Source: Cytauxzoon felis (Eukaryota; Apicomplexa; Aconoidasida; Piroplasmida; Theileriidae). Taken from it: a DNA stretch of 18,442 nucleotides. The position numbers were made by a program, and so were the translations under genes. The stretch lies in the NCBI GenBank assembly GCA_020283715.1, contig JAIQCW010000006.1, forward strand, positions 1-18,442. The letters run 5' to 3'. The stretch's first letter is position 1. Each line of letters opens with the position of its first letter. The notes beneath the pieces are model-generated. The model saw only the letters and a list, made by a program, of their open reading frames with translations, did not search any database and was not told the DNA's origin. This document shows positions 2,506 through 5,392 of the stretch, piece after piece.

Positions 2506-5392
2506 TCAACAACCCTTCAACTTTAAAGTATAATCCCAATCACGCACTAACGTATTAATCACCAAACCAAATAATAATGCACTTATCACCGCTACACCAG
2601 CCATCACATTAAACATCATCGCTATAATATCATTATTTACACAAAAATTAACATAATATTCCACTTAAGGTCCAACTCTCTTTTCCATTGCATGGAGCCT
2701 TCCTTATTTACCTCCCCTTCCAGCTCCCGTAGATCGCTTCCAGGTAGTCCACTTGAGGTCCAATCACTATACTTCTGCCACGATCTCTGGGAGTGGCTAT
2801 ACTCTTTAGAGATAGGTAATTGGAAGGGCTCCACGCCTAGTGGAAGAAGATGTGGGAGATGAAGAGTTGGATTGGACCTCAAGTGGAGTGGATAAGGAAT
2901 TATGTATATATGTTATGAAACTTACTGACATCAGCGAGTATCGTATAGGAGAACATGGAGTGTAGTATATGTATTTTGAAGTTGTTATTGAATTGATGAT
3001 AATGTTGATTATTGTAGTTGTTGGATAATTGTTCTAGTACGATAGGTGATGATATTCTTTGTCCTCTATGTCTAGATGGATGTACATCATCGAATATAAT
3101 AGTATCTTTATATAAATCTATACGTAATATAATATTACTATGGGGTGACAATGACAATTTAAATCCGATTAGATTCCAATTATTATTAATTTTATAAATA
3201 ATTGATATATTATTGTATGAATTATTCAAACAATTAATAGAATTACATTTATATATCATTTCATTACTCATATTATCTTTAATTTCAATATAAAATTTAT
3301 GTATTGTGGGGTTCAACCAATAAGGTAAAGGTTGTTGTAATATAAGTGTTTTATTTTTATCAGATATATTAACTACATGTATTAATAATGATGAATGGAC
3401 TCTATTCAATATATCATATTCCATACTATCCAATTCTGTAACTTCAAATAATAAATCATGAGTCCTATATGGAAAAAAATTCGATACATCATAAAAATTT
3501 GTACCACCTAAAAAAACACCATGACTATCAGTAAATTCCCCACACCTTTCATACACCATATTTGATGAAGAATTAACCCCATCTGAGGTCTTTCCACTAG
3601 GTGTGGAGCCTCTTCTATTTACTTCCCCCTCCGCTTCCCTGAGATCAGCTGCGGGTTCACTTAAGGTTACATCCTCTACACTTCCGCCACGATCTCTGGG
3701 AGTGGCTCTACTCTTTAGAGATAGGTAATTGGAAGAGCTGTCTGCAAGACCAACGGTGTTTGTAACCTCGGGTGTAGAATCATTGTGTTCTTTAAATGAA
3801 TCCCCACTATTAATGATATTATTGAGATTATCTGTACCATTATAATTGATGAGTGTATGATAGATTGTATTGATTTTATGTAATTCATTGATATCGAGTG
3901 TGATATTGAGATTTTGTGATTTGAATTTTCCATTATTTAAAATGAAATTAATTTTTGAATTATTTATAGAACTACAAGATTTCAATGTTTTATTTATAAA
4001 ATAATCATTAAAATCCTTTAATAATTTATTATTTTTAATAATAAATTGTATTTGTACATTAAAATTAATTGAATTATCACCATCAACAATAAATTTAATA
4101 CCCCTATAATATGATCTCGTAAATAACCTCTCATCATCAAGCATAGATATTAAACCACGCTTACATATACACGGTAATAACAAACGCCACTTAAATAAAC
4201 TATCCACACATAACATATCATCCTCATCCATTGCCATTAATATACCACCACCATCTGAGGTCTTTCCACTAGGCGTGGAGCCTTCTCTATTTAGTTTTCC
4301 CTCCGCTTCCCTGAGATCAGCTACGGGCTGTACAGACGATGTCATGTTGTTTGATCCAGGTGGAGAAATATGGTGTTCATTATCTTTGTCATGGGGGTTG
4401 TTTTTATTATGGTGTTTTTTATCCCCACTAACCCCCACATCGCCACGACCTCCGGGAGTGACTTTACCGTTTACGGGGAGTGAATTAGGAGAAGGCACCA
4501 CGCTCAGTGGAACATTGGTTGGACCGCGGGTGGAGTCATTGAATGTATGGTTTGAACTTTGTAACTTGTGTAGATGAGAAGTGGGTGTATTATATATAAG
4601 ATGATTGATATCATGTATGAATGATTTTTCATTGATAAGATTAGTGAATTGTGATCCAGTAATACCCCATAAACCATAGCAGAGTGATTCGAATTTATCA
4701 TAAATATATAATTTATCATTTATAGGCCATTTACTTAATAATGAAATACCATTTGGTATTATATCAAAAATATTATGTCCCCATAATTCAAATTTCCAAT
4801 CACCAAAGCCCTGAGTACCAACAAACCAATCAGCACCAACCTTACTATACAATTTTACAATGTCAACTGGTAATATATCCATTATATAACCATGCTTCAT
4901 ATCAATCTTATAAGATTCCATACTCACATCGAATACAAATAACCAATCATCATTCTTCAATGGATATATACTAAGAAACTCTGATGATTTATAATCTACA
5001 TTAGATGTTCCACATGAATTACTATCATCTCCACTTACGCTCGAATTCCAATCAACCTCATCTTCCACTAGCCGTGGAGGTGTTCCATTTGAGGTCGTCC
5101 TGCCGTCAGCTTCTCTATTTAGTTTTCCCTCCGCTTCCCTGAGATCAGCTGCGGGTAGTCCACTTGAGGTCCAATCATCACTACCATCTTCGTCACCGCC
5201 ACGATCTCTGGGAGTGGCTTTACCGTTTACGGGGAGGTAATTGGAAGAAGGCTCCATGCCGAGTGGAACACTGGTTGTAACCTCAGGTGGAGATGTGGTG
5301 GATGATATACTTTCGATGTAAGGACGTTGCGATTGAGTATTATCATCGGACAGAGATACAGTAGGTATAATGAATAATAAAATAAACTTCAT
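2506..5392 (-). CDS. GPI16: GPI transamidase subunit PIG-T/GPI16 with three in-frame repeat insertions
   Basis: This is an ER-membrane subunit of the complex that attaches GPI anchors to proteins, a key pathway in parasites with GPI-anchored coats. Exon 1 is 5392-2926 and exon 2 is 2621-2506, giving 860 residues. The GTAAGT donor leaves phase 1 and the ATTATAG acceptor restores ACG, then ATG ATG. A signal peptide is visible (MKFILLFIIPTVSLS). The luminal domain shows WKFELWGHN, SLCYGLWGITGSQF and LLPCICKRGLISML-DDERLF, recognisable PIG-T blocks. Exon 2 gives the transmembrane segment (MMFNVMAGVAVISALLFGLV) and a short tail ending KLKGC, a KxKxx-type ER retrieval signal. Residues about 35-118, 286-380 and 539-605 are the dispersed repeat read as protein. 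Without them the protein would be about 614 residues, near the family's usual 550-620. The family assignment is firm; that the insertions stay in the mature mRNA is inferred from the uninterrupted frame. Confidence 0.87.
2660..2889 (-). repeat. Fold-back element in the PIG-T intron
   Basis: This nearly complete copy occupies most of the 304-nt PIG-T intron, in the same orientation as the gene. It has the CCATTGCATGG tag on one side and CCACGCCTAGTGG on the other, the GATCGCTTCCAGG variant of one arm, and the GCCACGATCTCTGGGAGTGG hairpin module. Its two modules are in different reading frames relative to each other, unlike the copies in exons, which supports its being spliced out. Confidence 0.88.
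3579..3778 (-). repeat. Exonic fold-back element, PIG-T insertion 3
   Basis: This insertion adds about 67 residues (539-605) to PIG-T, read from the minus strand. The peptide contains SSSNYLSLKSRATPRDRGG, a short variable spacer, then [17 protein letters not shown]. The frame is open throughout and its length keeps the downstream PIG-T frame. It falls between the luminal domain core and the membrane-proximal part of PIG-T. Confidence 0.9.
4251..4536 (-). repeat. Exonic fold-back element, PIG-T insertion 2
   Basis: This is the longest exonic copy, about 95 residues (286-380). It uses the GTAAACGGTAAAG variant of the left arm (peptide NSLPVNGKVTPGGRG) and the LREAEGKLNRE right arm. The variable spacer is unusually long and charged, with histidine, lysine and asparagine (HHNKNNPHDKDNEHH). 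Confidence 0.9.
5039..5290 (-). repeat. Exonic fold-back element, PIG-T insertion 1
   Basis: This insertion gives residues about 35-118, directly after the signal peptide. The peptide has VTTSVPLGMEPSSNYLPVNG, then ATPRDRGG, an acidic spacer (DEDGSDD), then [20 protein letters not shown]. Both arms and three different hairpin tags are present. Confidence 0.9.

Follow-up and report, generated by a model that had tools for sequence, protein, structure and literature searches.

Protein-coding palindromes are an oddity of Rickettsia and Wolbachia. Here, an 18,442-nucleotide stretch (the window) of the nuclear genome of the piroplasm Cytauxzoon felis, a parasite of cats, is analyzed, in which the predicted gene for PIG-T/Gpi16 carries three in-frame segments. 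Most probably, these segments belong to a non-autonomous repeat (the C. felis repeat) that is modular, forms an imperfect palindrome, and is tolerated in one reading frame and translated as a disordered insert. The closest described system is that of the Rickettsia palindromic elements (RPEs), which have 12-bp inverted ends and an open frame, with target duplication unknown, and which are inserted in frame in 19 reading frames; one RPE-fused enzyme has been shown to be active (PMC2229807, in the portion of the text available; RPEs, Ogata et al. 2000, 2002).

So far as that portion describes RPEs, they and the C. felis repeat are alike in being small, with 12-bp terminal inverted repeats, a long stem-loop and no established target duplication, and in occurring both between genes and in frame in conserved protein genes. 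RPEs, however, are 105 to 146 bp long and belong to Rickettsia, whereas the C. felis repeat has a median length of 251 bp across islands of matches and occupies a eukaryotic nuclear genome with introns. Unlike RPEs, whose copy numbers are far below thousands, it is present in thousands of copies, is built of swappable micro-hairpin arms, and reaches up to three in-frame copies per gene. No sequence link to RPEs was found with one exact 23-base core. The C. felis repeat works like an RPE but is not itself an RPE. Protein-coding palindromic repeats were reportedly described in Wolbachia by Ogata and colleagues in 2005; these are also protein-coding palindromes but bacterial.

Among eukaryotic elements, miniature inverted-repeat transposable elements (MITEs) and foldback elements are non-autonomous, dispersed and hairpin-forming, with terminal inverted repeats. 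The C. felis repeat shares the MITE-like size, dispersal, hairpins, and terminal inverted repeats (in 120 of 162 islands) but differs in its in-frame coding habit, with no target-site duplication detected and no transposase in the few families searched. Introner elements are likewise dispersed repeats lying in genes; the PIG-T copies are unlike them in that the exonic ones have none of the scanned splice donors near their 5' ends and the fourth copy is enclosed in an intron longer than itself. Homopolymeric amino acid repeats in Eimeria are apicomplexan, genome-wide, and tolerated in proteins, but they are tandem trinucleotide repeats, whereas the C. felis element is palindromic and dispersed. 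In contrast to short interspersed nuclear elements and other retroelements, it gave no tRNA or Rfam match at the gathering threshold in the window, and a genome search for RVT_1 found a single frame (C56:73693-74436), which carries Telomerase_RBD and is the telomerase reverse transcriptase. Finally, the internal eliminated sequences of Paramecium are removed from somatic DNA, unlike the C. felis copies, which remain in cDNA of the antigen gene cf76 (see below). These Paramecium sequences are an example of selfish sequences colonizing coding exons (PMC8354472, in the portion available).

Three in-frame copies in the PIG-T gene

The PIG-T gene and the copies within it are as follows, the ends of the exonic copies being based on a hidden Markov model (HMM).

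2926..5392, minus strand: predicted first exon of PIG-T/Gpi16 (Pfam PF04113); the uninterrupted frame extends as far as 2900 and, unspliced, encodes 830 amino acids
5041..5292, minus strand: exonic in-frame copy 1, directly after a signal-peptide-like N-terminus
4238..4535, minus strand: exonic in-frame copy 2, directly before the conserved block CVDSLFKWRLLLPC
3579..3778, minus strand: exonic in-frame copy 3
2622..2925, minus strand: predicted intron, GTAAGT...ATTATAG, 304 nt
2657..2888, minus strand: fourth copy, within the predicted intron, its two arms out of phase

The frame at 2900 to 5392 matches Pfam Gpi16 (3e-08), and solved PIG-T chains in the PDB match it at residues 390 to 430 (E = 0.0067). 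An earlier sequence-only reading had given the protein as 860 residues long; this length fits once the predicted intron is spliced out with the donor at 2925 and the acceptor at 2622, the last exon then ending RDWDYTLKLKGC. The predicted splicing raises the Gpi16 score from 33 to 49.5 bits, with the best part at residues 668 to 851. The same reading had placed three copies in one open frame, in a common orientation and frame, and this holds: there is no stop codon in 2900 to 5392, the copies belong to one family with arms in phase, and the coordinates it gave lie at most 13 bases from the HMM-based ends. Its shared motifs stand in part, ADLREAEG being present in all three copies, whereas ATPRDRG is found in copies 1 and 3 and is replaced by VTPGGRG in copy 2.

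If kept in the mRNA and translated, each copy would add ~67 to 99 residues. Between two Gpi16 blocks, PIG-T residues 429 to 668 (239 residues) correspond to profile positions 206 to 383 (177 positions), and the excess of 62 residues fits the presence of an extra copy 3 (~67 residues). Within this one gene, the three exonic copies are in phase, whereas the intronic copy is out of phase. Among 40 scored places elsewhere in the genome, the best match to copy 1 is 87% identical over ~200 bases. Searches for relatives of the host protein yielded little: no PIG-T orthologue was found among 8,000 scored candidates, the sole match at E ≤ 0.001 being cf76, via the element itself; the region between copies 2 and 3 had no match among 654 candidates; and comparison of the C-terminal 45 residues with solved structures gave only a meaningless match (E = 0.81).

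A modular palindromic family

The C. felis assembly totals 8.62 Mb in 181 contigs, of which the window is C3. Three rounds of nhmmer were run on a non-randomly chosen sample of 218,442 bases, comprising C9:1-140000, C8:1-60000, and the window. The 377 matches fall into 162 islands that cover 42,722 bases (20%), namely, 25,974 bases of the C9 part (18.6%), 12,792 of the C8 part (21.3%), and 3,956 of the window (21.5%), and that have a GC content of 0.475 to 0.497, compared to 0.251 to 0.285 elsewhere in the sample. Genome-wide, with at most two mismatches, the arm core GCCACTCCCRGAGATCGTGGC occurs 2,825 times (1396 + 1429) and the arm core GCNGAYCTCAGGGAAGCGGAGGG 2,503 times (1247 + 1256), while the reversed-pattern controls for both cores occur 0 times. 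Given that the sample holds 124 arm 1 and 109 arm 2 cores in 218 kb, it is ~1.7 times denser than the genome, so that the 20% coverage scales to roughly 11% and the 31 coding islands described below to roughly 700. The median nearest identity within the sample is 77.6%, with 4 of 129 copies above 90% and 2 above 95%; this points to an old family, to fast recombination among the modules, or to both.

A typical unit of ~200 to 300 bp consists of two arms of small interchangeable hairpins between inverted ends resembling TCCACCTGAGGT / ACCTCAGGTGGA. In the 120 islands counted above, both 12-bp ends are present with at most two mismatches each, a TCCACCTGAGGT-like word first and a ACCTCAGGTGGA-like word last, and the two arms are able to pair as a long imperfect hairpin. 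Outer modules are swapped between positions: among 99 two-armed elements, the left/right module pairs are CG/CG (16), CG/CCTGCC (15), CTTG/CG (12), and CTTG/CCTGCC (10). Homogenization of the arms was considered and rejected; the module type on the left hardly constrains that on the right, and the arms therefore are not simply copied from one another.

The hairpins themselves vary in a paired manner. At the tip of arm 1 (125 copies), the second base pair is T-A in 81 copies, C-G in 41, and unpaired in 3, and the third is C-G in 97, G-C in 25, G-T in 1, and unpaired in 2. Across 40 aligned copies, two helices are paired in 97.1% of the cells and contain 27 double changes compared to 4.6 in shuffles, none of 500 of which reaches 27; the number of further pair types (7 compared to 5.5; 67/500 shuffles) is unremarkable. 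Because the copies share descent and a few founder variants would suffice, the double changes support the structure without proving it. For islands of 180 to 420 nt, the median plus-strand fold z score is -4.4 in 90 non-coding islands and -2.3 in 23 coding islands (Mann-Whitney p = 0.02), and z is below -2 in 76 and 14 of these, respectively. The weaker fold-back of the coding copies looks as if strong hairpins had been worn down or avoided in exons.

Reading frame of the coding copies

The reading proposed here is that the repeat family would have spread through non-coding DNA, introns, and exons. Because one of its six frames is commonly stop-free, coding copies would persist essentially in that frame and orientation, and they would do so where the protein tolerates a hydrophilic loop, to be then translated as a disordered insert. 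Copies outside exons would drift out of phase and collect stops.

An island was scored as coding when an open frame spanned it together with 60 nt on each side and the host score exceeded 20 under a codon model trained on 20 element-free open reading frames (ORFs). An open frame spans 35 islands, and 31 of the 162 are scored as coding, in 25 ORFs. On the gene strand, 52 of 54 core words are in one phase, both exceptions lying in one island (3 of the 31 islands have no such word). Arm phase was compared in 27 of the 31 coding and 77 of the 131 non-coding islands, with one-armed, armless, and mixed-orientation islands excluded: the arms are in phase in all 27 coding islands, 26 of which run in the sense of the gene, and in only 33 of the 77 non-coding ones. 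Of these 77, 15 have an open sense frame, and none of the remaining five frames is open in more than 1 island.

Since the coding set is defined by openness, a test using the codon score of the flanks only was applied as well. Coding sequence was found on both sides of 16 of 161 islands; in 14 of these, it is on one strand, and all 14 keep the same frame on both sides, 12 of them stop-free. With looser cutoffs, 17/19, 19/23, and 21/26 islands are in frame, and 14, 15, and 15, respectively, are stop-free. Among random element-free intervals with coding flanks, the frame is maintained in 168 of 217, and 154 of these 168 are open; the similar frame-keeping indicates that islands with coding flanks resemble exon sequence rather than disruption. 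A plain frame filter is enough to account for the proportion of coding copies: with 66% of the C. felis genome being coding (genome paper, PMC3748084, in the portion of its text available), random insertion with one-in-six-frame survival predicts 25% coding copies, and 19% are seen.

Element residues make up 3,070 of the 12,968 residues in the 25 host ORFs. The disorder-promoting types (A, E, G, K, P, Q, R, S, D, and T) account for 74% of these element residues, compared to 47% of the rest.

Copies in the cDNA of the antigen cf76

The C. felis antigen cf76 (723 amino acids) is encoded with 100% identity at C114:6540-8708 and contains two in-frame copies of the element. Tarigo et al. (2013) amplified the 2,172-bp cf76 ORF from cDNA, called it a single exon, and expressed it in vitro, and two of the published primers fall in element sequence (PMC3748084, here and below as far as its text was available). 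Because this cDNA ORF carries two copies, at least some copies stay in mRNA. The earlier proposal that a dispersed palindromic element is kept in protein, in the manner seen in Rickettsia, is the best reading and gains direct support from a gene other than PIG-T. That reading knew of no described equivalent in piroplasms, and none was found here within the accessible text, C. felis papers included (subscription papers and one 2013 thesis were outside the scope). In the available text of PMC3748084, "repeat" appears once, "repetitive," "transpos," "palindrom," and "insert" are absent, and the element family is not described.

The C-terminal region of cf76 contains a 30-bp tandem repeat that is present once only in one of eleven samples (PMC3748084). 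In the genome analyzed here, the last element module of the cf76 gene (L009:3405-3471) is tandemly doubled with a 33-bp period and 97% identity, and the published repeat is probably this doubling. The difference in one of the eleven samples is a hint of module turnover in populations. In addition, a 3670-amino-acid open frame on contig C164 has three cf76-like element matches listed.

Host proteins and predicted structure

The hosts that can be named besides PIG-T include a glutamate-cysteine ligase, a PARN/CAF1-type nuclease, a CAF1B/HIR1 propeller, a kinesin, an MFS transporter, a gamma-tubulin complex protein, a Yju2-type protein, a G-patch protein, a GTPase, a FAINT-domain protein, a helicase, and an endonuclease/phosphatase-family protein. 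Pfam domains were found in 10 of 19 scanned sample host ORFs, the other 9 having no match, and in three host ORFs of the window; among all 25 host ORFs, 3 cross locus borders and were left out of the scan. In the PARN-type ORF, one CAF1 match uses 422 residues for 206 profile positions, and in comparison to solved PARN, 178 residues instead of 21 lie between two matched blocks, the second of which is weak alone.

For the glutamate-cysteine ligase, in which the element makes up residues 252 to 343, an AlphaFold2 model built from 46 sequences has a mean predicted local distance difference test (pLDDT) score of 81.3 and a predicted template modeling score of 0.82. The pLDDT is at least 90 in 488 of 727 residues and below 50 at residues 217 to 243 and 252 to 366, so that the copy is predicted to be a disordered loop on an intact fold. 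This protein was also considered as an empty-site test and rejected: the element lies in a loop of variable length, and because the loop length varies in all nine aligned relatives, exact absence is unreadable there.

Ends and mode of spread

The copies presumably arrived by insertion and may have spread through a folded RNA or single-stranded DNA intermediate; the compensating hairpins would be in keeping with such an intermediate or with repair templated by a hairpin. Around the 162 extended islands, direct repeats in the flanks are no more frequent than in shuffles. Inverted runs of at least 7 bases flank 17 of the 162 islands (200 shuffles average 8.3 such islands and reach at most 17), and there is no excess of runs of at least 6 (28 compared to 23.6) or at least 8 (3 compared to 2.9). 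No polymorphic insertion was found. Among the few transposase families searched, DDE_3 has no match in the genome, the control being found in 3 genomes; Helitron_like_N and DDE_Tnp_1_7 have none either, but their controls were silent too. Collections of viral contigs and genome contigs gave no element match, the genome contigs being tested with one exact 23-base core.

Weighing the explanations

Several observations count against the proposed reading. The frame statistics of the coding islands are partly circular, since "coding" is defined by openness; the flank test is free of this circularity yet small, and because random intervals also keep frame, a shared frame on both sides is insufficient by itself to distinguish the element. 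A target-site duplication of at least 4 bp was found in none of 120 islands (0.36 expected by shuffling; the ends are fuzzy in composite islands), and as most copies are well diverged, recent movement is not shown. The fold-back character ascribed to the PIG-T copies by the sequence-only reading applies to the family as a whole, but two of the three show it weakly: the sense-strand z scores are -0.45 (5039-5292), -2.87 (4251-4536), and -0.71 (3579-3778), and two copies thus fold no better than shuffles. At the site in the glutamate-cysteine ligase, nine other proteins have a loop of 14 to 108 residues, and an exactly empty site was found in no orthologue.

Among other explanations, selection for the inserted peptide as a shared epitope, decoy, or functional linker, beyond mere tolerance, appears unlikely. 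Among the recombinant cf76 products, the strongest seroreactivity is that of the full protein and the C-terminal region (PMC3748084), and the second cf76 copy lies in the latter, the most seroreactive part. Stop codons are absent from 28 + 33 coding arms, compared to 6 + 7 in 97 + 116 non-coding arms, a difference that stems partly from the choice of coding copies. However, codon-position divergence gives no sign of selection at the amino acid level, with no clear third-position excess in the coding copies: at positions 1/2/3, the divergence is 0.188/0.062/0.160 in arm 1 and 0.140/0.124/0.119 in arm 2. Both flanks are coding less often for islands than for random intervals (22/161 compared to 321/972), so that exons are under-represented for the element. 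Furthermore, the nameable hosts are mostly of housekeeping types, with one carrying FAINT domains and 9 of the 19 scanned ORFs having no match.

It is very unlikely that the segments are introns or introner-like elements that are spliced out, their open frame being fortuitous. Introns do hold copies, both in the predicted PIG-T intron (2657-2888) and at 10547-10656, and donor types beyond the scanned motifs are possible. Nevertheless, a scan up to 60 nt from the 5' ends of PIG-T copies 1 to 3 found no donor of the motifs GTA[ACT]GT, GTA[AT]G, and GTACG, the only ones covered. The intronic copy is nested in a larger GT-AG intron and does not form its ends, and cf76, with its two copies, came from cDNA and was called a single exon (PMC3748084). 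All three PIG-T copies are stop-free and in phase, whereas the sense frame is open in 15 of the 77 two-armed non-coding copies.

Misassembly that put repeats inside genes is conceivable in a repeat-rich genome prone to misjoins but is highly improbable, given that frame and phase are kept in the coding copies and that cf76, sequenced from eleven samples with 92.2 to 100% identity (PMC3748084), is represented in the assembly by the published sequence with 100% identity. An origin of the segments as normal PIG-T sequence, either ancestral or of low complexity, deserves almost no credence: as no PIG-T orthologue was retrieved, shared sites are conceivable, but copies of this DNA number in the thousands across unrelated genes and non-coding DNA, and nine element peptide words are in none of 120 listed of 245 glutamate-cysteine ligase homologues, five of the 120 being from Theileria or Babesia.

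Other copies in the window

The remaining copies of the C. felis repeat in the window are as follows.

11158..11296, minus strand: copy with arm 1 only, in frame in a helicase ORF (11048-12406); coding frame and Pfam
12621..12860, minus strand: in-frame copy in the ORF at 12324-13376, which has no Pfam match of its own
15421..15536, plus strand: copy of arm 2 type only, in frame in an endonuclease/exonuclease/phosphatase-family ORF (15212-16543); coding frame and Pfam
7065..7325, minus strand: non-coding copy with a strong fold-back (7070-7325, -126.7 kcal/mol, z = -9)
6233..6485, plus strand: further copy, no scored coding frame
9667..9898, minus strand: further copy, no scored coding frame
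13773..14045, no strand assigned: further copy, no scored coding frame
16795..17078, minus strand: further copy, no scored coding frame
10547..10656, plus strand: partial copy in an apparent intron, with one stop in the flanking coding frame; intron signals judged by eye
692..1082, no strand assigned: long composite copy with extra internal sequence
8394..8888, no strand assigned: long composite copy with extra internal sequence

The ORF at 12324-13376 is probably an upstream part of the helicase gene. In the two composite copies, the arms flank an extra internal segment. For a Cys-rich peptide encoded at 8511-8801 (...CECCGYERGECMKDGYKCG...), the genome contains 22 matches, counting the peptide's own locus, and a longer class of repeat with cargo may therefore exist. 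At 104-2492, exons of an RNA polymerase largest-subunit gene were recognized by eye (Rpb1 domain 5 in the ORF at 1197-1760), with an element-bearing stretch between them.

Implications

The novelty lies in the scale, in the host being a eukaryote, and in the availability of internal controls. If the proposed reading is true, the thousands of copies of this nuclear family in an apicomplexan genome of 9 Mb would allow the question of whether selfish DNA can build protein to be tested at scale, with the non-coding copies of the C. felis repeat serving as internal controls for the coding ones. A bolder version, which is doubtful at present, is that the repeat is self-folding and built for tolerance in proteins, by compensating micro-hairpins together with one translatable frame. 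It would then spread without a transposase via folded RNA or single-stranded DNA and place the same peptide, a possible shared epitope, in hundreds of unrelated proteins, including a vaccine-candidate antigen. Gene models, serological assays, and vaccine antigens such as cf76 include an element peptide that recurs in many predicted C. felis proteins.

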